Below, piece by piece: positions 7,242-47,775 of a DNA stretch of 64,000 nucleotides. Positions within the stretch are counted from its first letter, which is position 1. Every line of letters begins with the position of its first letter. The notes under the pieces were generated by a model. That model searched no databases. It was not told the origin of the DNA and saw only the letters and a program-made list of their open reading frames with translations. The stretch lies in the NCBI GenBank assembly GCA_028718525.1, contig JAQULP010000005.1, positions 45,548 through 109,547 of the forward strand, written 5' to 3'. A program made the translations under genes and the position numbers. Source of the DNA: Sulfuricurvum sp. (lineage in GTDB: Bacteria > Campylobacterota > Campylobacteria > Campylobacterales > Sulfurimonadaceae).

Positions 7242-10027
7242 GCGAACAGAAAAATCCACTCCGCAGCAAAGCGGAAAAGATCGCTGCGGACAATGCAGCT
7301 AAAACACCGCACCGTGATAATCTCTCACCCGAAGAGACGGCTTCGCTTCTTCATGAACTGCAAGTCCATCAGATCGAGCTGGAGATACAAAACGAGGAGC
7401 TTCGCACAATCCAGCAAAAACTGCAGGCTGAACAAGAGCGCTATGAGGATTTGTATGATCTGGCTCCGGTAGGGTATGTCACCCTCTCGAAAGAAGGATT
7501 GATCCTTGAAGCCAATCTGAGAGCCGCATCGCTGTTCGGCGTGACCCGAAACCATCTGATCGGGCGTCCTCTGACACAATTTATCTGGAAAGAGGATCAG
7601 GACAACTATTATATGTGCCGCAGAAAAGAACACCCCTCTTCCGAAACGCAATCATGTACATTGCGAATAGTTCGGAACGAAGGAGAAGTGTTTTGGGCTC
7701 AGCTGGTCATCATGTCGAACCAAGACCATCAATACCGTGCCGTACTTTATGACGTTACCGAAGATAAAAAACAAAAAGAGATCATTGCCATTGCCCAAAG
7801 GGAATGGACCGATGCTTTTGACGGTATCGAGGACGGGGTAATGCTCCATGACAGGGACTACAATCTGATACGGGTCAATAAAGCGTACAAAGATCTTTCC
7901 GGCGCACAAAAGTTCAAAGATATTATCGGAAAACCCTACTATCAGGTCTTTCCGAAACTCGATGCTCCGATGCATACCTGTGAAGAGTCTTTCCGAAGCG
8001 GAAAAGGTGAAGAAGAACAATTCGCCCTCGAGGACGGCAGAATTTTCAAATCACGCACCTACCCGGTTTATGACAATGAGGGAGAGTACAGTTTCAGCAT
8101 CCATATCTTTGAAAATATCACCGAAGAGATAAAATCCAAACAATTGCTGCACGAAAGCGAAGAGAAATTTCGCACCATAACCACTACTGCCCAGGATGCC
8201 ATTCTCATCATGAACGATGAAGGGCTTATCACCTATTGGAACGAAGCGGCTGAAAACATATTTGGATATACAAAAGAAGAAGCTATCGGAAATGCATTGC
8301 ATCCCCTCTTGGCGCCTGAACGCTTTCACGAAGCTCACCACAAAGGATTCAGCCATTTCATACATACGGGAGAAGGTCCTGCTATAGGAAAAACTTTGGA
8401 ACTGAGGGCTTTAAAAAAAGACGGAACGGAATTTCCAATAGAACTGTCGCTCTCAGCCAACATGAGAGAAGGAAAATGGGAAGCTATCGGTATCATCCGT
8501 GACATCTCTCAACGCAAAAAAGATGAAGCCGGACTCAAAATGTTTCGTGCTCTAATCGACCATTCCAGCGATGCCATCGAAGTGCTCGATCCTGCTACAT
8601 TTCAATACATCGATGTCAATGAAACAGCCTGCCGCGCTTTGGGTTATACACGTGACGAGCTATTGTCGATGAATGTACGTGAGATTGATTTGGAGATCAG
8701 CGATTTGCAATTGCAACAATTAACTGAAGTATTGAACGATAAAGGTTCATCGATTTTCGAAAGCGCCCATCGGCGTAAAGACGGTTCAACTTTTCCGGTT
8801 GAGATCAGCATCTCTTCGGTTAAGAGCGATAAAGAGTACAATGTCTCAGTAGTACGTGATATTACTGAGCGTAAACAAGCCGAAGCATCACTTTATCGCT
8901 CCAACCGCGCCCTTAAAACGCTGTCAGCCGGCAACATGGCACTGGTGTGTTCACAAAGTGAAAATGAATTGCTAAAGAGTGTCACGGATGTCATTGTCAA
9001 AGAAGGGGGCTATAGCCTGGCGGTGGTCGATTACGCCCTAGACAATCCGGAAAAAACCATCACACCAATGACATGGTCTGGTTTGGAGAAAGAGCACAAT
9101 TGGATAAAGGAACTTAGCTGGAGCGAGACAGCAGCCAACCAAATGCCTGTTTCCAAAGCAATACGGTCCGCAACAACACAAGTCACCCGTAATATCGCAG
9201 CAGAAAATGAATATATATTATGGAGAGATGCTGCTATAGCTAACGGCTATGCGGCCAGCATTGCACTTCCACTGATGGATGGTGACAAAGTATTCGGTGC
9301 ACTGAATATTTATTCATCGGAAGCAAACGCATTCAAAGAAGAAGAAGAAGAAGAAGAAGTACGGCTGCTGGAAGAATTGGCCAACGACCTTTCGTATGGT
9401 ATCATAAGCCTTCGTAAGCGTATCGAACACGATCAGCATACAGCGATCTTGCGCCAAAGTATGGAACAATCCATAGAGACCATTGCGGCTACCGTAGAGG
9501 CACGTGATCCCTATACGGCAGGCCATCAAAATCGGGTTAGTGTGCTGGCAACAGCTATTGCACGGAAAATGAATTTGAGTGATACACAGGTTCAAGGTAT
9601 ACATTTCGCATCCATCATTCATGATCTTGGAAAAATCCACGTACCGGCTGAGATTCTTTCCAAGCCCGGTAAGCTCACCCCTATCGAATTTATGCTCATT
9701 CAATCTCATCCCCAGGAGGGATACGATATTCTGAAAGATGTTCAATTTCCTTGGCCGATTGCTGACATAATCTTGCAGCACCATGAAAAAATCGACGGCT
9801 CTGGGTATCCGCAGGGACTGAAAGGCGATCAGATTTTGTTGGAAGCAAAAATCATTTGCGTCGCCGACATCGTCGAAGCAATGTCTTCCCACCGTCCCTA
9901 TCGTGCGGCATTGGGAGTCGAAGCTGCTTTGAATGAAATCAAACAAGGGCGGGGGACTCTTTACGATGCTGCAGTAGCTGATGCTTGCGTAGAACTTTTT
10001 GAAGAAAAACAGTTTGATTTTGTATAG
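7238..10027 (+). CDS. Multi-PAS, GAF, HD-GYP c-di-GMP phosphodiesterase
   Basis: Same N-terminal module; HD motif IIHDLGKIHVP, HHEKIDGSGYPQGL, VADIVEAMSSHRPYR. Confidence 0.94.
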   Translation: MSEQKNPLRSKAEKIAADNAAKTPHRDNLSPEETASLLHELQVHQIELEIQNEELRTIQQKLQAEQERYEDLYDLAPVGYVTLSKEGLILEANLRAASLFGVTRNHLIGRPLTQFIWKEDQDNYYMCRRKEHPSSETQSCTLRIVRNEGEVFWAQLVIMSNQDHQYRAVLYDVTEDKKQKEIIAIAQREWTDAFDGIEDGVMLHDRDYNLIRVNKAYKDLSGAQKFKDIIGKPYYQVFPKLDAPMHTCEESFRSGKGEEEQFALEDGRIFKSRTYPVYDNEGEYSFSIHIFENITEEIKSKQLLHESEEKFRTITTTAQDAILIMNDEGLITYWNEAAENIFGYTKEEAIGNALHPLLAPERFHEAHHKGFSHFIHTGEGPAIGKTLELRALKKDGTEFPIELSLSANMREGKWEAIGIIRDISQRKKDEAGLKMFRALIDHSSDAIEVLDPATFQYIDVNETACRALGYTRDELLSMNVREIDLEISDLQLQQLTEVLNDKGSSIFESAHRRKDGSTFPVEISISSVKSDKEYNVSVVRDITERKQAEASLYRSNRALKTLSAGNMALVCSQSENELLKSVTDVIVKEGGYSLAVVDYALDNPEKTITPMTWSGLEKEHNWIKELSWSETAANQMPVSKAIRSATTQVTRNIAAENEYILWRDAAIANGYAASIALPLMDGDKVFGALNIYSSEANAFKEEEEEEEVRLLEELANDLSYGIISLRKRIEHDQHTAILRQSMEQSIETIAATVEARDPYTAGHQNRVSVLATAIARKMNLSDTQVQGIHFASIIHDLGKIHVPAEILSKPGKLTPIEFMLIQSHPQEGYDILKDVQFPWPIADIILQHHEKIDGSGYPQGLKGDQILLEAKIICVADIVEAMSSHRPYRAALGVEAALNEIKQGRGTLYDAAVADACVELFEEKQFDFV

Positions 10028-10045
10028 AGGGTAGTTAAACTTATG

Positions 10046-10090
10046 GGAAATTACTGTTTTACTGTTATTTTTTAAAAACAGTAGTTTTCC
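10046..10090. other. Inverted-repeat hairpin just downstream of the HD-GYP gene
   Basis: GGAAATTACTGTTTT ... AAAACAGTAGTTTTCC near-perfect stem; no clear U-tract follows, so terminator function is uncertain. Confidence 0.4.
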
Positions 10091-10183
10091 AATATATGCC
10101 CTTTACTCATATATTCCGTTATTAATTCCTGATCTATAGTCTCCCAAGGTGTACTTTGTGAGTCCCACATTACATTTACATTG

Positions 10184-10223
10184 TTGAAAAAATATTCAAT
10201 ATAATTTATCTTAGGTTAACTAA
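10184..10223 (+). repeat. Left terminal inverted repeat of the recombinase-trio element
   Basis: TTGAAAAAATATTCAATATAATTTATCTTAGGTTAACTAA; first 30 nt are the exact reverse complement of 16920-16949; 38/40 over the full repeat. Confidence 0.9.
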
Positions 10224-10265
10224 CACTATGCGCTGAAACAGCAAATTAGCTTGATTTACACAGTA

Positions 10266-10297
10266 TTTTCCCAAAATGGGAAATTTCCTGCTATAAT
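10266..10297 (+). promoter_or_regulatory. higBA promoter/operator
   Basis: Palindrome TTTTCCCAAAATGGGAAA followed by extended -10 TGCTATAAT (10289-10297), immediately before ATG at 10304. Confidence 0.6.
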
Positions 10298-10303
10298 ACA
10301 TTT

Positions 10304-10597
10304 ATGAGAGTCATCAGTAAGCGAACATTACAAGATTTTTGGAGTAGCCATCCAGATGCTATAAATCCATTAGCAGGCTGGTATGCTGAGGCGATGAAAG
10401 CTTCTTGGCAATCGCCGCAGGATATAAAGTCTCAGTATAAAACTGCCAGTTTTTTGCGAGATAATCGTGTAGTCTTCAATATAGGTGGAAACAAATACAG
10501 ATTGATTGTAAAGATCAATTACCCTTACAGTACGGTATATGTCCGATTTGTCGGAACCCATGCCGAGTATGACAAAATAAACGCAGAGGAGATTTAA
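10304..10597 (+). CDS. higB: HigB-type mRNA interferase toxin
   Basis: MRVISKRTLQDFWSSHPDA...FNIGGNKYRLIVKINYPYSTVYVRFVGTHAEYDKI matches the HigB toxin consensus; followed by a HigA-like gene. Confidence 0.88.
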   Translation: MRVISKRTLQDFWSSHPDAINPLAGWYAEAMKASWQSPQDIKSQYKTASFLRDNRVVFNIGGNKYRLIVKINYPYSTVYVRFVGTHAEYDKINAEEI

Positions 10598-10600
10598 AAG

Positions 10601-10954
10601 ATGAATATTTTTCCTATCCGGACCGAAGAAGACTATGATAAAGCATTGGCGAGAATTGATACGTTGATGAATGCTGATATAGGAACAGCTGAAGGGGATG
10701 AACTGGATATTCTTGTGACTCTGATCGAGGCGTATGAAGCCAAATATTATCCAATGCCGGTTTGTGACCCTGTCGAAGCGATCAAATTTCGTATGGAACA
10801 AATGGGATTAGAGCCAAAGGATCTTACGCCGATTATCGGTTCACGTTCAAAAGTATCAGAAGTATTGAATCATAAACGCCAACTCTCTATTGCTATGATT
10901 CGTAATCTTCATGCACGATTGCACGTGCCTTATGAGTCATTAATCGGTGCATAA
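10601..10954 (+). CDS. higA: HigA-type antitoxin (HTH)
   Basis: DPVEAIKFRMEQMGLEPKDLTPIIGSRSKVSEVLNHKRQLSIAMIRNLH, directly downstream of higB. Confidence 0.85.
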   Translation: MNIFPIRTEEDYDKALARIDTLMNADIGTAEGDELDILVTLIEAYEAKYYPMPVCDPVEAIKFRMEQMGLEPKDLTPIIGSRSKVSEVLNHKRQLSIAMIRNLHARLHVPYESLIGA

Positions 10955-11010
10955 AAACATACTTTTTTCTTAGTAAGGTCCCAATCAGAAATACAGTGGA
11001 GGAGTACACT

Positions 11011-11229
11011 ATGCATTCTATTCGTCAAAATGTAGATGACAGTATCTATGATAGATTAATTGGATTACTCCAAATACTTCCAAAAGATAAAGTTGAAATT
11101 CTCTCAGATAGTGATAATTCAATTTCATTTGAAGAAGCGAAACATAAAGTAGCTCGTGCGGCTAATAATGTTTTAAAACAAGAAGGTCTTGACCTCGACA
11201 CTGCAATTGAAAAAATTCTAAACTCATAA
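11011..11229 (+). CDS. Small RelB-like antitoxin candidate
   Basis: ATG at 11011 after GGAGG; MHSIRQNVDDSIYDRLIGLLQILPKDKVEILSD...; overlapping toxin stub follows. Confidence 0.5.
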   Translation: MHSIRQNVDDSIYDRLIGLLQILPKDKVEILSDSDNSISFEEAKHKVARAANNVLKQEGLDLDTAIEKILNS

Positions 11230-11280
11230 ATGATCTATAGAATTATTGTTGAGTCTGAGGCTCTAAATGCTCGTATTTAA
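11230..11280 (+). pseudogene. N-terminal stub of a RelE/ParE-like toxin
   Basis: MIYRIIVESEALNARI* starts at the antitoxin stop and ends after 16 codons. Confidence 0.4.
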
Positions 11281-11476
11281 TTTGATTAACATAAGTTATC
11301 TAAAGTAGATTTGTCTGTCATATAAGAATAGTCCCTCCAATATTAGCTCCATTGAACTAAAAAAACTCCCTGCTTTAGGTGCTTTGCTCGATAGTAATTT
11401 CATTTCAATGAACCAATACGTTGAAATTGTTATTTGTTAGACAGATTAGGTGGGTCAAAGTATAAAAACTACGCCA

Positions 11477-11505
11477 TTGACTTACTAGTATACTTCTGAT
11501 ACAAT
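11477..11505 (+). promoter_or_regulatory. Promoter of the RelE/HigB2-type TA pair
   Basis: TTGACT (11477-11482), 17 bp, TACAAT (11500-11505); ATG at 11512 lies at the expected +1. Confidence 0.6.
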
Positions 11506-11511
11506 GACCCT

Positions 11512-11826
11512 ATGGAAATCGCCGAAACTACCATTTTTACCCGCGAGATTACCCGTATCCTCTCTGATGAGGAATATAAGGAGCTTCAATCCTTTTTGGT
11601 AGAGCACCCTAAAAGCGGAGCAGTGATCAAAGGTTCAGGCGGATTACGAAAAATCCGATGGTCAACTAAGAATAGCGGTAAAAGCGGTGGAATCCGAAAC
11701 ATCTACTACTATCATGAGGAAAACAGTCTTATCCTTATGATCTATGTGTATGAAAAAAGCAAAACATCCGATTTAACCCCAAAACAAATCGAGATGCTCC
11801 GAAAAACTTTCATGGGAGGTATATGA
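11512..11826 (+). CDS. RelE/HigB2-type toxin
   Basis: TIFTREITRILSDEEYKELQSFLVEHPKSGAVIKGSGGLRKIRWS...GKSGGIRNIYYYHEE. Confidence 0.88.
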   Translation: MEIAETTIFTREITRILSDEEYKELQSFLVEHPKSGAVIKGSGGLRKIRWSTKNSGKSGGIRNIYYYHEENSLILMIYVYEKSKTSDLTPKQIEMLRKTFMGGI

Positions 11827-12104
11827 TGGAAGATACAATGTTTAATGACTTGCTTGCAAGTGTTGGCGAAGCAAAAGAGATACTACAACACAAAAAACAA
11901 CCCTCACGTTCATTCATGATCGATGAGCCTGATGCGAAGTCTATAAGAACACAATTAAAGCTTACTCAAGATGAATTTGCGGGGCTTTTAAATATTAGCG
12001 TTAACACACTAAGAAACTGGGAACAATCACGCCGTAAACCGGAGGGTCCGGCTCGTGTATTACTCGGGATTGCAGCTACCCATCCTGAAGTATTCGCTCA
12101 CTAA
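11823..12104 (+). CDS. NadS/HigA2-type XRE antitoxin
   Basis: IRTQLKLTQDEFAGLLNISVNTLRNWEQSRRKPEGPARVLLGIAATHPEV; overlaps toxin stop. Confidence 0.88.
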   Translation: MMEDTMFNDLLASVGEAKEILQHKKQPSRSFMIDEPDAKSIRTQLKLTQDEFAGLLNISVNTLRNWEQSRRKPEGPARVLLGIAATHPEVFAH

Positions 12105-12111
12105 AAAATTG

Positions 12112-12333
12112 GTGTCTACTTTGAGAGAAGAATACGATTTTTCACAATCTGTCCAGAACCCTTATGCCAAACGGACAAAAAAACAGATATCGCTCAATGT
12201 CGATGTCGATACGATCGAGTATTTCAAAGAGCTATCGGTAAAAATAGGATTGCCGTATCAAACCCTGATCAACGCGTATCTCACTGATTGTGCTATGCGT
12301 CATGTTGAGCCTCAGTTGAAGTGGACGAGCTGA
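12112..12333 (+). CDS. BrnA/CopG-like antitoxin without partner toxin
   Basis: GTG start at 12112 more plausible than 12055; TLREEYDFSQSVQNPYAKRTKKQISLNVDVDTIEYFKELSVKIGLPYQTLINAYLTDC. Confidence 0.65.
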   Translation: MSTLREEYDFSQSVQNPYAKRTKKQISLNVDVDTIEYFKELSVKIGLPYQTLINAYLTDCAMRHVEPQLKWTS

Positions 12334-12679
12334 TCGTTTTCTCCAACAACAGTTTCAATGCGACAACTTGATCCATCAAGGTGAGATTGGCTTGTCGCAA
12401 TTTTTTATTCTCCTCACGCAACGCTTCTATCAGAACCTCTTTTTCATTTACCGCTTTCTCCACAGATTTTACAGAAGGTGTTGGCTTGGTCGGCATGTTG
12501 CCGAGTAAGTCTTTGTAATTGGCGTAAATAGTAGCTCTACTGATACCGCACAATGATGCCAATTGTTCGACACTCACTTTGGTTCCGGAAGCTTTGAGCT
12601 CTTTGATGGTCTTCTCCAGAAGCTGTCGCGTCTGAAATTTTTGTTCGGATTTGTATTTCTTGAGTGAATCGCCTTTAGG
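12293..12679 (-). CDS. DUF6262/TnpC-like small transposition protein
   Basis: MPKGDSLKKYKSEQKFQTRQLLEKTIKELKASGTKVSVEQLASLCGISRATIYANYKDL (HTH) then coiled coil; follows the recombinase genes as in Tn554 tnpABC. Confidence 0.7.
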   Translation of the reverse strand, partial: PKGDSLKKYKSEQKFQTRQLLEKTIKELKASGTKVSVEQLASLCGISRATIYANYKDLLGNMPTKPTPSVKSVEKAVNEKEVLIEALREENKKLRQANLTLMDQVVALKLLLEKTISSSTSTEAQHDA

Positions 12680-14309
12680 CATGAATATCCTTTGGTTGAA
12701 TGGAATCAATGATAGCGAGAACTTTAGAGAGCTGATAACGGGCTTTTTTTACTTCGACACTCTGAGAAGGGCTGCAATGTTCGATATGACGCTCAAGGAG
12801 AGTCGCTTCATGGATAAAATTGGGTAAAAAAGTTTCATTCGTCACAAAGTCTTTGCAACCGATGCTGTAGCAGCTTTGAACTCCCAAGTTGGGGCAATGC
12901 CCCCGTTTAAAATCATACAGACACATCCCAAACGGCAGAGGATTGATACCGAATACTTTTGAGAGTTCATCGAGCTTATCCGATAGGTTGGGTGATGTTT
13001 GGATCGAATGCAATCGATGTTTGAAAGCTTCTCCTTCTATCCCTTGTGTGTGAAGATGTTTGGCCTGTATCATCCCTTGCAAATAGGTTTGTTTCATCTC
13101 CTCTTTGCTCTGGTGAACATAGTGGGCAGTCATTTCGATAGAGAGATGCTTGAAGTGTGTTTGAAGAACCACGAGATTGACACCGCACTCAGCAGCGGCG
13201 AGTTTTGCAAAAGTATGACGAAAGCAGTGCGAGGTAAGTGGCACTTCATGATTCTTTGCATTGTGAAAGGTCAGCGCAAGATTGTTACGTTTTAAAAATG
13301 GTCTGAGATAACTGTGGTTCCATTTACCGGACTCCATCGGTGTCGGAACGAGTCGCTGAGATACTGAGGTACCTTTATTGGGGGAGAGGAGATAGAAAAG
13401 GTAATCTTTCTCTTGGGCTTCGTTTCGCAAGGGCTCACAGAGACGTTCAAGATGGAGGAGGAGTTCAAAAATCTCTTTCGGAATCAGTATTCGATGCGCA
13501 TAGAGTTCGCGTTCGGTTTTTTGGATCGTGACATTGAGCCAGCTGGTTCCATCATTGTCTTGATGGGCACATCCGCGTTTGAGATAGAGGATTTCGGAGA
13601 TACGCAACCCGGTGTGGGCTTGTACTAAGATCGCAAATTTAGCGTGATTGAGACGAAACAGCCCTTTGCTTTTTCCACTTTGAAAGGTTTGCAGTATATC
13701 TGGCTCATTCCAGGCACACTGAATGATTGCCTTCCAAAGCGGTGTAGGGATACTGTGATCGTCGGGACCGTTTTGGCGCTCAAGAGATCCTTGCTTGTTG
13801 GCTCCCCACCAATCCCACAAAGAAGTTTCCAGTCGGATCGGCTCTTGCGGCAGATCATTGAAACCGCCATTTGATCCCATGCTTAAGAGCTTGTATAGTG
13901 TATTGGAGATACGGCACATATTGTTGGATTGTTTGGTGTCGGTCATATAATGGTGCTTTAGCCAACGGTTAAATCCCATAAAACGATCGGTATTGAACTG
14001 TGCCAAGGATGAGAGATTCTCCTCTTCCATGAATGCAATGATCTTTCCAGCAAGTGCAGCGTATTCATTGGCAAGGGTTAAGGGTTTGACCTGACCCAGT
14101 CGGAGATAAAAAAAGCGTTTAAACGCTCCGATGAGTAAGGGTTTGGAGGCAAGAAGGTTAAAATTCAATCTTCCCAGAGAGTAGACACTGGAGCGTTTGT
14201 CGTGCAGCAGCGGTGTTAGATCCCAAATCATGTCACTAAACCGGCTAGATGGAGTCACGTCGAAATCGTGGATAAGTGAATCGGCCGCAATGGTGGGGTG
14301 CAGACTCAT
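12675..14309 (-). CDS. Tyrosine recombinase 3 (TnpB-like, C-terminal Cys cluster)
   Basis: TGLRISEILYL; SHCFRHTFAKLAA...HFKHLSIEMTAHY; CLYDFKRGHCPNLGVQSCYSIGC. Confidence 0.85.
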   Translation of the reverse strand: MSLHPTIAADSLIHDFDVTPSSRFSDMIWDLTPLLHDKRSSVYSLGRLNFNLLASKPLLIGAFKRFFYLRLGQVKPLTLANEYAALAGKIIAFMEEENLSSLAQFNTDRFMGFNRWLKHHYMTDTKQSNNMCRISNTLYKLLSMGSNGGFNDLPQEPIRLETSLWDWWGANKQGSLERQNGPDDHSIPTPLWKAIIQCAWNEPDILQTFQSGKSKGLFRLNHAKFAILVQAHTGLRISEILYLKRGCAHQDNDGTSWLNVTIQKTERELYAHRILIPKEIFELLLHLERLCEPLRNEAQEKDYLFYLLSPNKGTSVSQRLVPTPMESGKWNHSYLRPFLKRNNLALTFHNAKNHEVPLTSHCFRHTFAKLAAAECGVNLVVLQTHFKHLSIEMTAHYVHQSKEEMKQTYLQGMIQAKHLHTQGIEGEAFKHRLHSIQTSPNLSDKLDELSKVFGINPLPFGMCLYDFKRGHCPNLGVQSCYSIGCKDFVTNETFLPNFIHEATLLERHIEHCSPSQSVEVKKARYQLSKVLAIIDSIQPKDIHA

Positions 14310-15697
14310 AACAATTCCTCCAGTTTCTCGATGATCGATCCGATCATTTCCGCCTCAAAGCGCAGATGGCGTGTCACATGATCTCCATAATTGGATAAAG
14401 CGTCCATTTCACGACTTTTCTCTTCCAATAGCGTCTGAAAATAGGGTAAAAACTCCGGGGTTGTGACCATTTTTGTACATCCGTAGCAATTCCCCCGCTT
14501 GGGAAAGGTTTCACACATATACCCCTCGTCATGCAGCATGGCCGTGTTGGTGCAATATCCATCACTCAATCGCAATGCTTCAATTCCTTGATGATAGATT
14601 TCAACCTCTTGCATGGAGGATAGTATACGCATATGATCGAGGGTTTTTGTGATTTGTTCTCTGTAATCGGTCTGCTTGGTTTTCACATAATGTTTTAGAG
14701 TGGTTCGTTTGTGCTTATGATTGAGGATGCTCTGCGTCGCTTCCAGAGAAACGCCGCTGCTTTGCATGTTGGTTGCCAGCGTTCGGCGAAACATATGGGA
14801 GGTGAGTTTCGCCAATGCGCCGTTTTCATCGCGGACATCGTGCCGTTTTACAAATTGATCCAGACGATTTTTTTGATATGCATCCAAAACACGTACCGTC
14901 GAATTTTTCGCTGTTTCCAAAAAAATATACGGTGTTTTCGATAAAGCCCGTTGCGTGGCATGTGATTGGATCAAGCTTTTTAATGCATGGGCAACGGGGG
15001 AAGCGATGGCCGGGAGAATAACCTGCTCTTTTTGTTTATGATCGACATAGTACAGATCGAATTTCCCCTCTTTATCGCTTGGACGCAGACAATCTTCTCG
15101 CAAGGAGACAATGTCTTGGGAACGCAGCCCGTAATAGATGCATAGGAGCAAATAGGTTCGGGTGAGGAGATCGTCGTCTTCTTTCAACCCTTTTTTGATC
15201 TGATTGAGCACATGATCGGAAATAAAAGCGGTTTTTAGATGCTCATTGTTTCTTTTGAAAGGAGAGCGTTGGAACAAAGAGAGCGGCGGAGATTCATCGG
15301 GATAAGATTCTGATAGCCAGAAGGCGAAATTTTTAAAAAAAGTATAGACGAGTCTTTGAGCGCTTTGAGAAAGGAGTCTCCCCGATTTACTTGAAACTGT
15401 CGCCAAAAACGCAAACAACTCATCCATGTGCATCGAGGTAAAATGCTCAAGGCTCTCAATGGTGCGCGTTTCTAAAAAGGTAAAGAGATATTTGATCATC
15501 ATCGACTCTGTATAGAGCGATGTTTGAGATTTTCGTTGAGTGTTGAGCGATTCGAGAATGTACTCTTTGTGCAGAATAGCGATCCGTATCGGCTTTAAAG
15601 AAGCATAGGAGACCTTACGAAGACGGTTGTTGATCGTAAAGTGGATAGTGTTCTCCATATCAGATTCCATAGCTCTCATAAAAACCGACAAGCTCAT
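14306..15697 (-). CDS. Tyrosine recombinase 2 (C-terminal Cys cluster)
   Basis: YYGLRSQDIVSL; SHMFRRTLATNMQ...LNHKHKRTTLKHY; CETFPKRGNCYGC; 4-nt overlap with next gene. Confidence 0.85.
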   Translation of the reverse strand: MSLSVFMRAMESDMENTIHFTINNRLRKVSYASLKPIRIAILHKEYILESLNTQRKSQTSLYTESMMIKYLFTFLETRTIESLEHFTSMHMDELFAFLATVSSKSGRLLSQSAQRLVYTFFKNFAFWLSESYPDESPPLSLFQRSPFKRNNEHLKTAFISDHVLNQIKKGLKEDDDLLTRTYLLLCIYYGLRSQDIVSLREDCLRPSDKEGKFDLYYVDHKQKEQVILPAIASPVAHALKSLIQSHATQRALSKTPYIFLETAKNSTVRVLDAYQKNRLDQFVKRHDVRDENGALAKLTSHMFRRTLATNMQSSGVSLEATQSILNHKHKRTTLKHYVKTKQTDYREQITKTLDHMRILSSMQEVEIYHQGIEALRLSDGYCTNTAMLHDEGYMCETFPKRGNCYGCTKMVTTPEFLPYFQTLLEEKSREMDALSNYGDHVTRHLRFEAEMIGSIIEKLEELL

Positions 15698-16811
15698 GAA
15701 CCATCTCCTCTTTGGAGGCGATTTGAATGTAGATATCGGTGGAAGCCATGTAGCGATGTCCCAAGAGTTTTCGCAGTTTGTCGATGCTCATTTGATTTCG
15801 AGACAGCATCGTGGCATAGGTGTGCCGAAAATCGTGCGGAGTAAAATAGATGCCTGTTTTTTTCCCTATCACCCGGCATCGCTCCCATACCGCCTGATAG
15901 CTTAGCGGTTCACCAAGGTTATTGTGAAATTCGGAAATGAATAAAAACTCATGTTCCATCTGCTTCTTTTCATAGATACGGAGCCAGGTGAGTTCATAAT
16001 ACTCATTGAGCTTCTCCATCAAGAGGGTAGGAATAAAAAGATCTCGGATCCCCGATTTTTGTTGACGGGTACGATTCCCTTTGTAGGGGTCGTCTTGATT
16101 GGGATGCATGGTTAGATCTTGCACGTTAGCGCGTAGATCGGAGATACCGATAGAGTGGACACTCAGGCTCAATGCCTCTCCGATACGCATACCGGTGAAC
16201 AAGAGGAGTTCAAACAGCAGCCTGTCTCGCTGCAAGGTGCACGCTCCAAGGATAACCTCTATCTGATCTTTGGAAAGAATGCGGATTCCTCGATCGAACT
16301 CTTTGATCTTGTAGCGGATAGCAGGGGTGAAGGGTTTTAGACGGTTGGCATAGCTTTTCTTGGCGTGAATGGTTTCGGATGCATGTAAGAACGGATTACT
16401 GATAGCATGGATCGCTTCATGATAGGTGTAAAAATCTTTGAGCGTCGAGAGGATGCGGTTAATTGTTTTCGCACTACGCGGTGATGCCTCCTCGGAGTTC
16501 AGCCATGCGATAAAAGCGTTGATTTGTTTTTGGGAGAGGGATTGATAAGAGTATCGGTACTGATACAAAAACTCATAAAAGAGTTTGAGATCGTTTCCTT
16601 TGGAGATGACCGAATTAAACGCCAGCGCTTTGTACCATAGCCGGTTGTGCAGATACTCCCACACTTCAGGTATGATGTTGAAATTATCATCAAATAAACA
16701 GACGTAGCGTTCAACGATGATTCGTATAGATTCATCCGATGTTGACTCGACAACCTCTAATGCATCATTTAACGCATAAGGGCGATCCACAATACGAAGA
16801 TACATATACAT
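15660..16811 (-). CDS. Tyrosine recombinase 1 (TnpA-like)
   Basis: TGMRIGEALSL; PHDFRHTYATMLS...LLGHRYMASTDIY; overlaps recombinase 2. Confidence 0.9.
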   Translation of the reverse strand: MYMYLRIVDRPYALNDALEVVESTSDESIRIIVERYVCLFDDNFNIIPEVWEYLHNRLWYKALAFNSVISKGNDLKLFYEFLYQYRYSYQSLSQKQINAFIAWLNSEEASPRSAKTINRILSTLKDFYTYHEAIHAISNPFLHASETIHAKKSYANRLKPFTPAIRYKIKEFDRGIRILSKDQIEVILGACTLQRDRLLFELLLFTGMRIGEALSLSVHSIGISDLRANVQDLTMHPNQDDPYKGNRTRQQKSGIRDLFIPTLLMEKLNEYYELTWLRIYEKKQMEHEFLFISEFHNNLGEPLSYQAVWERCRVIGKKTGIYFTPHDFRHTYATMLSRNQMSIDKLRKLLGHRYMASTDIYIQIASKEEMVHELVGFYESYGI

Positions 16812-16909
16812 CCTAAATAGCCGTATTTATTAGGGCTCAATATCACTTAGGAAAATTATACATATATTTGTTATACAAAGTCAAACATATATATTGGACA
16901 TTATGTACT

Positions 16910-16949
16910 TTAGATAACATAAGATAAATTATATTGAATATTTTTTCAA
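16910..16949 (-). repeat. Right terminal inverted repeat of the recombinase-trio element
   Basis: Reverse complement TTGAAAAAATATTCAATATAATTTATCTTATGTTATCTAA pairs with 10184-10223. Confidence 0.9.
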
Positions 16950-16969
16950 GCATTGACCATACCCTGCTC

Positions 16970-17062
16970 TCACAGGGTAGAAAAAATCACTGCATCGATA
17001 CTTCGAACCAATTTATCTTTCTCAAGAGCATTTAAAATCGCCATCTCTTCTGCATCAAACAT
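16970..17062 (-). pseudogene. Truncated small antitoxin-like ORF adjacent to the element's right end
   Basis: MFDAEEMAILNALEKDKLVRSIDAVIFSTL*; N-terminus resembles CopG-type antitoxins. Confidence 0.4.
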
Positions 17063-17079
17063 TGTTTTCTCCCTTATTC

Positions 17080-17569
17080 CAATGTACGGATATTTCAAAG
17101 TTGACCATACTTTTTTTGATGCTGTATCATTTCCTAAAAGCGATATCGATTATATTGTAAATCAATACAGTTTTCATGTAGATACACTAAAAATAGCGTT
17201 AAACACGCATGTCCGCTACAAAAGAATCATCCGCGAACACTTTGGATTTCTCTCCCCTAATGAGAATCTTCGCAAGATATTAGAAGCTGAAGCCGGCCAC
17301 CTCATTTCCAAACTCTCCAATCCAAAAGCACTTTTTTACGCTTTGGTCGAAATTTCTGTTTCCAACCAGTATGAAGTTCCAACCTATACCTTTTTAGTCC
17401 GGATCATCACCGAGGCAATAAATTCCCATAAGCGGCATATATTCGATTAGCTCAAACCTTTATCCCATCATCAAGAACTTAGGACCTAGATTTATTTTTA
17501 GAAGATGATGAAGTCAATGCCGGTCATTACAGCCTATCATACTTCAAAAAACTATCCCATTCTCTATAG
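17080..17569 (+). pseudogene. N-terminal (DUF4158-like) relic of a Tn3-family transposase
   Basis: FPKSDIDYIVNQYSF...VRYKRIIREHFGFLSPNE then frame break and LDLFLEDDEVNAGHYSLSYFKKLSHSL*. Confidence 0.55.
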
Positions 17570-17576
17570 CTAAATA

Positions 17577-17598
17577 GTGTCAAGAAAGTGTCAAGAGA
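17577..17598 (+). promoter_or_regulatory. Tandem 11-bp direct-repeat operator candidate
   Basis: GTGTCAAGAAA GTGTCAAGAGA; repeated inverted at 22082-22103. Confidence 0.6.
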
Positions 17599-17660
17599 GT
17601 TCATGGGGAGCATTGACACCTTTGTTCTACCATTACAGTATCCAAACCAAGGAGGACGGT

Positions 17661-18068
17661 ATGAAATACCTAACTATCTTTTTGATGCTCTCAATGTCAC
17701 TAATGGCGGCGTCACCAGAAGTCAACCAATACATGAATGAGCTCTCAACTGCAGCCAAAGCCCAAGACAAGACTTTTACGGGATTTGATGCTACCAGAGG
17801 AAAAGAAATTTTTACCTCAACATATATAGGTAAACAAGGAAAATCTATTTCATGTACTACGTGTCATACAGTTAATCTCAGCAATTCTGGAAAAAATTCC
17901 CTGACCGGAAAAGTGATCGAACCGCTCTCTCCACGCGCCAATGCTCAACGGCTCACGAGTGCCAAAGAGGTCAAAAAATGGCTGAAACGAAATTTCGTAG
18001 ACGTTTACACACGGGAGGGAACAGCCCAAGAAAAAGGTGACGTTCTCACCTACATACAAAACAATTAA
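17661..18068 (+). CDS. DUF1924 (SHP-like) cytochrome c
   Basis: ATG after GGAGG; signal peptide; CTTCH motif; GKVIEPLSPRANAQRLTSAKEVKKWLKRNF. Confidence 0.85.
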   Translation: MKYLTIFLMLSMSLMAASPEVNQYMNELSTAAKAQDKTFTGFDATRGKEIFTSTYIGKQGKSISCTTCHTVNLSNSGKNSLTGKVIEPLSPRANAQRLTSAKEVKKWLKRNFVDVYTREGTAQEKGDVLTYIQNN

Positions 18069-38955: not shown

Positions 38956-40245
38956 ATGAGTAAACTTTTAGAAGTTGATGCCTATCTTTATGGGCATAAG
39001 ATCGGTACAATGATCATGCATATGAGTAGAATTTATTTCGAATACGACTCTGCTTTTAAATCTCTCGGACTTGAAATATCTCCCCTGAAATTAAATACGA
39101 AAAAAATCCCCGGCGCGTATACAAATCCTGATTCACCTGATTACTATTATGGGATGTGTGGAGTTTTTTTCCAATCTCTTCCAGATAAACATGGAATGCC
39201 CTTTATTGATCGCTATTTTGAGCGACAAGGGGTAGCTTCGGATAAAGTGACCTTGCTGCAAAAGCTAACGTTCATTGCCGATCGCGGTATGGGTGCCATA
39301 GAGTATGCACCAAAAGAACATGAAGAGATTATGGAAGCAGCCATCGCACTCAGTGCAAAAGAATTACGAGAAGAGATGCGCCTTGTTTTAGAGGATGATG
39401 TAAAAAATACATCGATCAGAGATTTTATGAATATCGTCAATAATGCATCACCCATAGGCGGTGCTAGACCAAAGTTACTGATTTCTTACAATCAACAAAG
39501 TGGTGAAATAAGAAGCAATAGCGGCACACTTCAAGATGGATTTGTCCGTTCAATATTGAAATTTGATGAGTCATACCCTAATGCAGATGGTATTAACGAA
39601 AGTATTGAGTTAACAAAATTAGAATACCTTCATATGTCCTTGGCGTCAGAGTGTGGGATTACAATACCTGCTATGACATTGATCGAAGAGAATGGGGAAC
39701 ACCACTTAATTTTCGAGCGATACGATAGAGATAAGCATGACCAAAAAATCCATGTATGCAGCGCGGCTGGTTTGATGCATAAAGATATCCGTGTAGCGCA
39801 AGTAATGTCATACGAGGAACTTCTAAAATTAACCAATCTGATCACGAAAAGTCAAAGTGATGTTGAAGAGATGTTTCGGCGGATGGTATTCAATGCCTTA
39901 TCGTTCAATGTGGATGACCATGCCAAAAACTTTGAATTTATGATGGACCGTACTGGACAATGGCGTCTTGCACCGGCATATGACGTCACGTATTCCAAAG
40001 GAGTCGTCAAAGAGCATCTTACTACGATTAATGGTAAGAGTTCCAATTTTAGCATCGATGACTTTTTGGTAGTCGCTCAGAAAAATCTTATTGATCAAAA
40101 GAGTGCAAAATACATTATTAATACCACTGCTGCAAAGCTTTCAACTTATAAAATGAGAGCTAAAGATACTGGTATTAGTGAAAGTGAAGCAATTAAAATT
40201 GGTACAGAAATACATATGCAGCTTGTTAGGTTAGGACTTGTTTAA
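38956..40245 (+). CDS. hipA: HipA-family kinase toxin (copy 1)
   Basis: IGGARPKLLISY; FERYDRDKHDQKIHVCSAAGL; VFNALSFNVDDHAKNFEFMMD...APAYDVTYS. Confidence 0.92.
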   Translation: MSKLLEVDAYLYGHKIGTMIMHMSRIYFEYDSAFKSLGLEISPLKLNTKKIPGAYTNPDSPDYYYGMCGVFFQSLPDKHGMPFIDRYFERQGVASDKVTLLQKLTFIADRGMGAIEYAPKEHEEIMEAAIALSAKELREEMRLVLEDDVKNTSIRDFMNIVNNASPIGGARPKLLISYNQQSGEIRSNSGTLQDGFVRSILKFDESYPNADGINESIELTKLEYLHMSLASECGITIPAMTLIEENGEHHLIFERYDRDKHDQKIHVCSAAGLMHKDIRVAQVMSYEELLKLTNLITKSQSDVEEMFRRMVFNALSFNVDDHAKNFEFMMDRTGQWRLAPAYDVTYSKGVVKEHLTTINGKSSNFSIDDFLVVAQKNLIDQKSAKYIINTTAAKLSTYKMRAKDTGISESEAIKIGTEIHMQLVRLGLV

Positions 40246-44241: not shown

Positions 44242-44414
44242 TGCATCGCCGTCACGAAGAGTATTGATCGTAGAAATGAATGGTTTTTATCTCACCTTAC
44301 TTTATAATATAAATATACGTTTTTTTATAACCTAATATATGTATATATATAATTATGTATTGTTTTTTTATAAATAGTGTACAATTCTATTATAAAGTTA
44401 TTAAGAGGGGAAAA

Positions 44415-45659
44415 ATGTCCGCAATTAAGCGTATAGAACTGTGGGCTTGGGAAAGACAGATTGGCAGTGTTGTCGAAGAGGGAAATCGGCTTGTCTTGGA
44501 GATGATCGCCGGCAATTCCCATTTTTCTCCTCTACAATTTGATGCACAAAACATCGTCACGTCGATTGACAATGTTTATGGAATCGGTTTGATTGGAGAC
44601 GCCATCCCGGGCTCCTATGGTATGGATTATCTTGGACATTATTTTCAAGATGAATTTGGTAGAAAACCCTCTGTTGCAGAAATACTTGCTTTTATAGGCT
44701 CACATGGCCTTGGAGCAATTGAGTTTCGTCCTCCCAGCAGCACAGGCGATGTCAGCACAGAGCTTGTAGCAACGCTTGAAGAGTTGAAAACTCAATCAAG
44801 AAGGGTTTATGAAGGAGAACACCAAGTCGAACTTTCAAAGTTGATTGCGGTATCCAACAGTGCCATAGGCGGAGCAAGGACAAAAGCTATCGTTGGATTC
44901 AACCCCGAAACAAACATGATCCATATCGGCCAAAAGAACAGCAAATCTCCGGACGGGTTTAGAAAATGCATTGTCAAATTCAACGCGAAAAAAGAGAAGG
45001 AAATAGACCAGTATAACATTGAAATCAAGGCGGAATACCTCTACTGCAAGTTGGCCAAAGCCCTTGGAATAAAAATGAGTGAATCCTGGCTGATCGAAGA
45101 AAACGGTATTTGCCATTTCGCAACAGAGCGATTTGATATTACACAGCAAGGCGAACGTCTGCATCTCCATTCGTTCGCAGGACTTATCGGTTCGGATGCA
45201 GCCTCATTCGCAACAAGCTACGACGCACTATTTCGGGTCTCTAATACCATAGCAGTATCTGAACAAGACAAAGAGCAGCTATTGAAAACAATGATTTTCA
45301 ACCTTATTTTTGGAAACAAAGACGACCATGCCCGCAACTTTTCCTTTTTAATGGACAAAAGAGGGATATGGAAGGTGGCTCCCGCATACGATTTGACATT
45401 TTCGGTTCACAGTTATGGGGCAAACAAGCATCAGCTCAAAATAAACAGGGGGTTTGCGGACAGCGCAAAAATAAAAGACATAGATACTACTGCAAATATC
45501 ATAGGGATAAAGAATTCCAAAGAAGTGCTTGAGCATTTTATTGATTTTAAACATGCATATATGCATGTTTTTGCCGAAGAACTCGGCATTGAAGCGTTTG
45601 CAAAGGGTGTGATTTCTGCTACGGCCGCAATGGACAAAAAGATGGGAGGTTCCAAATGA
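44415..45659 (+). CDS. hipA: HipA-family kinase toxin (copy 2, precedes its antitoxin)
   Basis: ATG at 44415 after AAGAGGGG; IGGARTKAIVGF; IFNLIFGNKDDHARNFSFLMD...APAYDLTFS. Confidence 0.92.
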   Translation: MSAIKRIELWAWERQIGSVVEEGNRLVLEMIAGNSHFSPLQFDAQNIVTSIDNVYGIGLIGDAIPGSYGMDYLGHYFQDEFGRKPSVAEILAFIGSHGLGAIEFRPPSSTGDVSTELVATLEELKTQSRRVYEGEHQVELSKLIAVSNSAIGGARTKAIVGFNPETNMIHIGQKNSKSPDGFRKCIVKFNAKKEKEIDQYNIEIKAEYLYCKLAKALGIKMSESWLIEENGICHFATERFDITQQGERLHLHSFAGLIGSDAASFATSYDALFRVSNTIAVSEQDKEQLLKTMIFNLIFGNKDDHARNFSFLMDKRGIWKVAPAYDLTFSVHSYGANKHQLKINRGFADSAKIKDIDTTANIIGIKNSKEVLEHFIDFKHAYMHVFAEELGIEAFAKGVISATAAMDKKMGGSK

Positions 45660-46123: not shown

Positions 46124-46459
46124 ATGCGCTTCTCTCTTCTCTCCGATACTGCTATCCAAATCGAGCTTGGAAAACGCGTTGATATTAAGCGACGCGAGAA
46201 CGGTCTATCTTTAGAAGACTTGCGGGATAAAAGCGGCGTTAGTATCTCAACGATAACAAGAATGGTAGAGGGAAAGAGCTCCCCCTCTTTGATCAATTTC
46301 ATTAAAGTACTTCGAGCGTTGGGGGAACTTGATAAACTTAACATTCTTCTTGAATCCGACAACACCTTTCGCCCAAGCGGCCTAAATGCCGCCGAACCCA
46401 AAAAAAGAATATTCAAATCCAAAAAAACTACCGCCATACAATGGGGAGATGAAGAATGA
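46124..46459 (+). CDS. hipB: HipB-like XRE antitoxin
   Basis: GKRVDIKRRENGLSLEDLRDKSGVSISTITRMVEGKSSPSLINFIKVLRAL. Confidence 0.82.
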   Translation: MRFSLLSDTAIQIELGKRVDIKRRENGLSLEDLRDKSGVSISTITRMVEGKSSPSLINFIKVLRALGELDKLNILLESDNTFRPSGLNAAEPKKRIFKSKKTTAIQWGDEE

Positions 46460-47775
46460 GCACACCCATCATACATGTTTCACTCTGGGGGCGCACGGTC
46501 GGTTATCTTGGGTATGGTGCCAATGACAATGTCGCTACCTTTGAATTTGATCCAGAGTTTGCCTCGATGGCGTTGGAACTCTCCCCTATCGTTATGAAAT
46601 CAAACAAGCTGCTGCACAAATTCGACACGATCAGTTTTAGAACCTTCCATGGTCTTCCAGGGATATTTGCCGATTCGCTCCCCGATAAATTTGGTAATCA
46701 GTTGATCGACATCTTTTTTGCAGACAAAGGAAAACTACCAAATGACATTACGGCGCTTGATCGCCTTGCTTATATCGGAAAACGAAGCATGGGGGCGTTT
46801 GAATATACTCCGGAGCAAAATCCTGGCATTGCAATGGGTGGCGATGCACTTGATATCGGACATCTCTGTGAACTGGCCAACATGGTTCTCTCCAACAAGC
46901 AACAATTTGTGAATGAACTGGCCAATGCCTCATCTCATAACGATGCCCTCTCGATTATACAGATCGGTTCAAGTGCGGGCGGTGCACGCTCAAAAGCGCT
47001 CGTCGCGCGAGACAACAGGGGTACGTTTTACGATGGTAGCGTAAATTCTGGCTCAGATAAAACATACTGGCTTTTAAAATTTGATACCACTGAGAACAGC
47101 GACCGGGATAGAAAAGATCCAAAGGGGATGACTAAAATAGAGTACATCTACTCTTTAATCGCCAAACAATGCGACATCATGCTGCCAAAGACCGACTATC
47201 TGATCAACGGGGACGATTTTTTATTCATGATTGAGCGCTTTGATCGTGAAGTACATGAGGGCAAACTTAGAAAGAAGCACTACTCCTCATGGGCTGCATT
47301 GCAGCATTTTGATCGTGATACCACCGGCGCATATTCGTATGAGCAATTAATCCTCACCATGCGCGAATTAAATCTTGGACACAATGAATTCGTCGAACTT
47401 TACCGTCGTGCCGTCTTTAACATCATCGGACGAAATCAAGACGATCACGCAAAGAACTTTGGCTTTCAAATGGACAGAAACGCTGTATGGAGCCTCTCCC
47501 CTGCGTTTGACATGACTTTTTCATACGATCCTCTCGGAAAATGGACCAACACGCATCAAATCTCGCTATCGGGTAAACGGGATCACTTTGAGCGCAACGA
47601 TCTTTTGGCTTTCGCTTCGAAATGCAATATCCGTGCAAAACAGGCTAATGAAATTATTGAACAATCTCTTGAAGCTTTTAATAGTTTTACACGGTTGGCT
47701 CAAGAGCATGAAGTTCCGAATGAACTTTACAAACAGGTTTTTGCATCGCTCAGAGTTAAAAGTTTACAGTTCTGA
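46456..47775 (+). CDS. hipA: HipA-family kinase toxin (copy 3)
   Basis: GSSAGGARSKALVARD; FNIIGRNQDDHAKNFGFQMD...SPAFDMTFSYDP. Confidence 0.93.
   Translation: MSTPIIHVSLWGRTVGYLGYGANDNVATFEFDPEFASMALELSPIVMKSNKLLHKFDTISFRTFHGLPGIFADSLPDKFGNQLIDIFFADKGKLPNDITALDRLAYIGKRSMGAFEYTPEQNPGIAMGGDALDIGHLCELANMVLSNKQQFVNELANASSHNDALSIIQIGSSAGGARSKALVARDNRGTFYDGSVNSGSDKTYWLLKFDTTENSDRDRKDPKGMTKIEYIYSLIAKQCDIMLPKTDYLINGDDFLFMIERFDREVHEGKLRKKHYSSWAALQHFDRDTTGAYSYEQLILTMRELNLGHNEFVELYRRAVFNIIGRNQDDHAKNFGFQMDRNAVWSLSPAFDMTFSYDPLGKWTNTHQISLSGKRDHFERNDLLAFASKCNIRAKQANEIIEQSLEAFNSFTRLAQEHEVPNELYKQVFASLRVKSLQF

Follow-up and report, generated by a model that had tools for sequence, protein, structure and literature searches.

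A recombinase-encoding element apparently integrated at a dif-type Xer site in a Sulfuricurvum genome

Introduction

What delimits a block of three tyrosine recombinase genes at 10184–16949 of a 64,000-nucleotide stretch of Sulfuricurvum sp. DNA (GCA_028718525.1, contig JAQULP010000005.1; the whole stretch is called the window here), and what kind of site has it entered? An earlier note on this DNA regarded the block as one transposon ending in a 40-bp inverted repeat. The dif site is used by bacteria to separate replicated chromosomes, and it is usually exploited by elements that borrow the Xer enzymes of the host. The analysis below relates the repeat to dif-type sites and places one end of the recombinase element within the block. 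Genomes, contigs and loci carry our own labels (G, C and L).

Genes of the Block

The features of the block are collected in Table 1. The three overlapping recombinases and the DUF6262/TnpC-like protein that the earlier note had recognized are borne out by profile searches: A, B and C each match Phage_integrase (PF00589) above the cut-off, with R-H-R-H-Y in the alignment of all three, and D lies just above the cut-off for PF19776 (30.5 versus 29 bits). For D, the listed open reading frame begins at 12709, with 12682 as the position of the start codon that its relatives conserve. The operon A-B-C-D lies on the minus strand and the small genes on the plus strand, where the cargo consists mostly of toxin-antitoxin genes (HigB, RelE, NadS, and BrnA). 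Both the order of the four operon genes and their catalytic residues are conserved across genera. The promoter-like sequence inside the A end resembles those at the A ends of L113 and L063. The antitoxin-like protein following HigB has no match in a Pfam search, and homologues of the orphan BrnA in L061, L093 and G000:C15 have an adjoining toxin gene.

TABLE 1. Features of the recombinase block and the adjoining HigB module (positions in the window).
Feature	Position	Strand	Description
S1, left arm of the repeat	10184–10223	+	Dif-type site TTCAATATAATTTATCTTAGGTTAACTAA at 10195–10223, XerC-to-XerD on the plus strand
HigB-type toxin	10304–10597	+	PF09907; also PD-Lambda-2 component A (PADLOC)
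Cognate antitoxin-like protein	10601–10954	+	PD-Lambda-2 component B, N-terminal part of the model (PADLOC)
72-aa ORF	11011–11229	+	Absent from the G062 copy of the HigB module
S2, D-side end of the element	11282–11310	-	XerD half of a dif site (TTATGTTAATC) joined to inner arm TTATCTAAAGTA; core CATAAG at 11290–11295
RelE-family toxin, cargo	11512–11826	+	Profile match
NadS-type HTH antitoxin, cargo	11823–12104	+	NF041265 above cut-off
Orphan BrnA-type antitoxin, cargo	12115–12333	+	Partner toxin gene missing in the window
D, DUF6262/TnpC-like small putative DNA-binding protein	12293–12682	-	DUF6262 (PF19776)
C, large tyrosine recombinase, 544 aa	12675–14309	-	PF00589; R236 H361 R364 Y397; Cys-rich C-terminal segment
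B, tyrosine recombinase, 463 aa	14306–15697	-	PF00589; R-H-R-H-Y; Cys-rich C-terminal segment
A, tyrosine recombinase, 383 aa	15660–16811	-	PF00589; R209 K252 H326 R329 H352 Y361
Promoter-like TTGACT-18-TATAAT	16855–16884	-	Just inside the A end; consensus match only
S3, right arm of the repeat and A-side end of the element	16910–16949	-	Near-intact dif-type site TTCAATATAATTTATCTTATGTTATCTAA at 16910–16938

The Inverted Repeat and its Two dif-Type Sites

The arms at 10184–10223 and 16910–16949 are identical at 38 of 40 positions, with an exact run of 30 nt. When positions 9001–18000 were simulated 100 times under a first-order Markov model, the longest exact inverted repeat reached 16 nt (mean 12.7). 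The repeat described in the earlier note is therefore real and far beyond chance. Compared with the dif consensus, however, both arms read as dif-type (XerC/XerD) sites in opposite orientation, facing each other, rather than as the terminal repeat of a transposon: the site in S1 has one mismatch and that in S3 at most one. S1 does not contain the inner arm TTATCTAAAGTA, which is present at every genuine end of the element, and in place of a direct CATAAG it has the core CCTAAG, oppositely oriented. The candidate in which the repeat forms the ends of the transposon was rejected, because the left arm is without the common inner arm and both arms hold dif-type sites. S1 lies outside the recombinase element, where it borders the HigB toxin-antitoxin module.

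S1 nevertheless is a real border, because G062 matches the window from 10198 inwards and carries a different sequence outside. Of the two breakpoints assumed previously, 10184 and 16949, the left arm is consequently genuine as a border, but the D-side end of the element lies internally, at 11290.

The central sequence is TTTATC in both S1 and S3 and TATATA in chromosomal dif. Recombination of the inverted S1 and S3 by host XerCD may thus be possible through their common centre, which would invert or shuffle the whole block, and recombination with the chromosome would be expected to be poor because the centres differ.

Two short segments adjoin the block. On the left of S1, 84 bp (10079–10162) recur at 88% identity in G088:C5 and G130:C63, apart from the neighboring gene. 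On the right, 42 bp between S3 and a Tn3 remnant (16950–16991) contain the hairpin ACCCTG-N6-CAGGGT and have no match among the relatives compared. The remnant itself (16992–17565), of the Tn3 family and 94% identical to G078:C67 and G120:C9, passes from the N-terminus of an antitoxin directly to the start of the Tn3 transposase gene, the toxin gene between them being deleted.

Ends of the Recombinase Element

The ends were located by comparison with relatives of the operon in other Sulfurimonadaceae genomes and in named records. One relative is on plasmid pSULFM1 of Sulfurimonas aquatica H1576, where IS256 interrupts gene C. At the A end, the sequence common to the window and L061 stops at window position 16938. 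Beyond gene D or its cargo, the relatives have a second site that reads inward as TTGG(T)TTAA-CATAAG-TTATCTAAAGTA, the window's copy of which (11282–11310) lies well within 10184–16949, and in L061, L062 and L113 complete elements end at this D-side site. The recombinase element proper is accordingly placed between direct copies of CATAAG, from 11290 to 16918–16923, a length of 5.6 kb. Direct TAACATAAG is found at 11290 and 16918 with an identical 6-bp core; it is shorter than the 10–17 nt published for GInt elements (PMC5385486). Six elements have two ends (the window, L061, L062, L064, L113, and the short derivative L093), and in all of them one end repeats the inner arm and the 6-bp core of the other, with the core in direct orientation. 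The core is CATAAG in four and CATAAT in two, and agreement of its last base alone is weak evidence, expected in about 1 of 15 cases by chance; the identity of the target, given below, is the strong evidence. The host genome of the window has one copy of the element.

Several shorter relatives occur. The derivative L093 (780–4240), 3.4 kb in length with both ends, has only D and a catalytically dead A, together with toxin-antitoxin genes, its A being altered from R to Q, H to E, and H to K. Three copies with dead A and D are present in G130:C80 (L098), two of them truncated in A, and G068:C160 (L100) has an intact-type A and D without B and C. That the dead A of L093 and L098 still has an open frame suggests a retained structural role. 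The short derivatives may be mobilized in trans.

dif as the Insertion Target

Joining the two outer flanks of the elements rebuilds the target motif TTRRTTAA-CATAAK-NTAWATTMTMTTGAA. With at most three mismatches allowed, this motif is present in 164 of 200 family genomes, and the reversed motif, used as a control, gives no match in the same 200 genomes; most complete family genomes have one good copy. The earlier note had tied the repeat to the recombinases and had named its occurrence in related genomes without them as a point against that tie; most of these 164 genomes hold the dif-type site without the recombinases, which tells against it.

The joined flanks of the window element, TTGATTAACATAAGATAAATTATATTGAA, have no mismatch to the dif consensus, and those of all six two-ended elements have 0–1 mismatch of 29, a count that is not fully independent, as the consensus was partly drawn from the flanks of the elements. 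Independent evidence comes from the dif copies of chromosomes and from the dif published for Sulfurimonas denitrificans. Carnoy and Roten placed the latter, TTTCAATAGAATTTACATTATGTTAACC, at 1122264 (PMC2731167), and the match in G095 at 1122252–1122280 encloses it, with the same sequence on the other strand. On these comparisons, the target of the element is a dif-type Xer site. The short contig of the divergent relative L065 (34–40% identity) contains no dif-type site, and no convincing difH-like target site was found for the Malaciobacter relative.

A variant dif-type site, TTCAAGAGAATTTAGATTATAGTATCTAA, occurs in three identical copies in G180 (C7:14236, C7:45584, and C2:1037), and the 1.2-kb module adjoining it is 93% identical to that of L113.

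Occupied and Empty Sites

The rebuilt site of the element in G052, TTGGTTAACATAATGTAAATTCTCTTGAA, is exactly the dif of G016, G030, G046, G058 and G063, all placed in the genus of G052. Only hybrid A ends match dif in G052, with no further dif match in that genome. Of the two genes that border dif in the sister genomes, the one at the XerD side adjoins a D end on contig C66 of G052, and the one at the XerC side is on contig C4, which also bears an element. This comparison of occupied and empty dif is strong, although not contiguous, since the locus is spread over several contigs with extra DNA. G138 likewise has a hybrid A end only.

In the genome of the window, an intact chromosomal dif is present at G000:C12:1332, with flanks syntenic with other dif loci, and the window element is therefore in a second, plasmid-type dif site. 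The flanks of the window locus are mosaics, with the Tn3-family remnant on the right, and flank searches there found mosaic neighbors and no clean empty site or contiguous pair of occupied and empty sites.

Relation to Known Recombinase Systems

A, B and C were compared, by a profile-free protein comparison, with references from Tn554, pMOL28, Paraburkholderia and RIT elements (pHG1). Outside Campylobacterota, the best match of A is a TnpA-type protein of Peribacillus (103 bits), followed by TnpA of Tn554 (91), A of pMOL28 (53) and RIT (12); that of B is a Legionella recombinase (71 bits), then TnpB of Tn554 (59); and C is nearest to C of Paraburkholderia (46 bits). Against A and B, no RIT protein scores above 13 bits, and none matches C. 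The tree groups the recombinases of the window, L113, L065 and Malaciobacter into three well-supported clades, one each for A, B and C; that of A is joined to TnpA with support of 94/94, the RIT branches are long, and the deep positions of B and C are without clear support. Judged by sequence, the lineage is a distinct Campylobacterota clade that is nearest to TnpA of Tn554 and far from RIT. The kinship with Tn554 that had been suggested earlier is in this way upheld; one with RIT is not supported. A scan of IMG/VR with C retrieved distant recombinases only.

Likeness to Tn554 extends to D, which matches DUF6262 and is weakly like TnpC, and to the Cys-rich C-termini of B and C. However, Tn554 has two recombinases (TnpA and TnpB) with TnpC rather than three, and its attachment site is not dif. 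RIT elements share the three adjacent overlapping tyrosine recombinase genes, but they have no fourth protein, and their proteins are of 314–412 aa; membership in RIT was rejected on the scores and the tree.

In plan, the element resembles GInt and SE elements, and the proposal of an uncharacterized intermediate architecture is not supported: the plan is already known from GInt (PMC5385486), and that of SE is similar (PMC10214605). Of the four genes in the GInt operon ginABCD, all of them essential, three encode tyrosine recombinases and the last a small protein (PMC5385486). As compared by the published description, both elements have a terminal operon with the cargo lying beyond its fourth gene, and a site-specific target; the short direct repeats at the junctions may correspond to the imperfect ones of GInt, which are longer. 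GinC is without the first catalytic Arg (PMC5385486), whereas C keeps it (R236) in the window and in all aligned relatives; and GInts target ssb or an ABC transporter gene, whereas the target here is dif and the cargo, made up of toxin-antitoxin genes, spans about 1 kb. SE elements have the four-gene order intA-tfp-intB-srap (PMC10214605), and this order, with a small Srap/TnpC-like fourth gene, is shared by SE, the pMOL28 and Paraburkholderia sabiae loci, and the window. The imperfect inverted repeats around a 6-bp spacer of SE would have their counterpart in the predicted circle junction. Tfp, however, has the recombinase fold without catalytic residues, whereas B has R-H-R-H-Y; the second recombinase of pMOL28 and P. 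sabiae is without R and H, and sequence similarity to these systems is only distant. The element thus appears GInt- or SE-like in plan, but differs from each in one defining feature that was compared.

A Model for Integration and Competing Explanations

We consider it probable that the 5.6-kb element (11290–16923), with A-B-C-D and toxin-antitoxin cargo, is integrated in a dif-type Xer site that was already the right border of the HigB module. The sequence itself establishes where the element ends, that its 6-bp core is directly repeated, and that the target and the two arms of the repeat are of dif type. In this model, the left border of the original HigB dif module would be the inverted site at 10195. 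The element would be excised as a circle with the symmetric attachment site TACTTTAGATAA-CATAAG-TTATCTAAAGTA, and A, B and C with D, whose catalysis is predicted, would exchange strands at the 6-bp core CATAAG that is common to dif. On integration, the D end would receive the XerD arm, while a near-intact dif, consisting of the XerC arm, the centre and most of the XerD arm, would stay at the A end, so that dimer resolution could go on. The XerD arm of the A-end site differs from dif in its outermost bases only, and we infer that a functional dif is left there and that catalysis is performed by the element's own recombinases, not by XerCD.

That 10184–16949 is one transposon, with the 40-bp arms as terminal inverted repeats, HigB as cargo and the site at 11290 as an internal relic, seems to us quite unlikely. 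A repeat so far beyond chance would fit such a transposon, as would G062, in which the HigB module, the D-side end and RelE/NadS/BrnA recur elsewhere with the same left breakpoint; but the absence of the inner arm from S1 and its opposed core, the complete elements that end at the D-side site in L061, L062 and L113, and the HigB module outside the A end of L113, together with the lack of a dif-type flank at most family copies of HigB, all speak against it. Host XerC and XerD could instead integrate and excise the element at dif as they do CTXphi, GGI and LME-1, the four genes then having another role or being remnants. When the IMEX GGI and LME-1 integrate, they do have a hybrid site on one side and retain a near-intact dif on the opposite side (PMC5357621, PMC9765430), and the arrangement here is alike; IMEX, however, including CTXphi, are moved by host Xer, whereas recombinases are encoded here. 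Little credence is given to this explanation, because the predicted circle site has the centre GATAAC, unlike TTTATC of dif, while CATAAG is shared exactly, because the four genes are conserved across genera in order and catalytic residues, and because GInts need all four genes (PMC5385486).

An unlikely, if somewhat less strained, alternative is that the element is immobile and the arrangement a record of past shuffling of dif modules by XerCD. The orphan BrnA antitoxin, the Tn3-family remnant at the right border and the single copy in the genome are in keeping with such decay, but all four genes are full length and have catalytic residues and a promoter-like sequence. Integration by the element's own recombinases into a dif-type site is the explanation that we regard as most probable.

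Targeting of dif by an element that encodes recombinases, with a near-intact dif preserved at one of its ends, is apparently unreported in the open-access literature searched, in which no recombinase-encoding element was found to be described as targeting dif. If the model is true, an element that lands in dif with its own recombinases and leaves a dif would represent a new harmless way into an essential site, and because the predicted junction and target are exact, both claims are directly testable. A wider proposal, which we put forward tentatively as a possibility, is that recombinase transposons of Campylobacterota target dif and its plasmid copies and keep a working dif, so that insertion into an only dif is tolerated, and that they seed and relocate toxin-antitoxin dif modules, including single ones that XerCD alone cannot excise.

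The HigB Module and Other dif Modules

The HigB module lies between S1 (plus strand) and the XerD half at S2 (minus strand), which are inversely oriented dif-type sites. In Acinetobacter, a plasmid dif (pdif) module whose XerD sides point inward is termed a D module, and toxin-antitoxin pairs, higBA among them, are typical there; the movement of a single module with inverted sites, which XerCD is unable to excise, is a stated open problem (PMC13141974), on which the element would bear. By that usage the window HigB unit, with toxin-antitoxin genes between inverted dif-type sites, is a D module; the difference is that it belongs to Campylobacterota and has a recombinase-encoding element inserted in one site. 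Dif modules of Campylobacterota were not found in the open-access literature searched.

In G062, the HigB module, D-side end and RelE/NadS/BrnA are in the same order as in the window, and the composite of module and element may have moved as one unit. In L113, the array before the element comprises a DUF6036 nucleotidyltransferase pair and a HigB pair. The notion that the HigB module is intrinsically flanked by dif was rejected, since a dif-type flank is missing from most copies of HigB in the family.

Further loci, chosen by the presence of dif-type sites and thus examples rather than a measure of enrichment, include AbiE in G108:C14, adjacent to both a D end and a dif-type site; MntA/HepT, which in G086:C4 is enclosed by inverted dif-type sites and in G082:C20 adjoins one; and RelE-NadS in G120:C18, with a D end on one side and a dif site on the other. 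A module of two genes (331 aa and 253 aa) recurs in G120:C9, G108:C19, G078:C79 and G100:C80, each time preceded by the same dif-type site, of core CCTAAG, and a common flank; it is likely to be a mobile dif module. Elsewhere in the window, there are three HipA-family genes (38956–40245, 44355–45659, and 46456–47775), the first of which is closely like one that adjoins a dif-type site in G086:C4.
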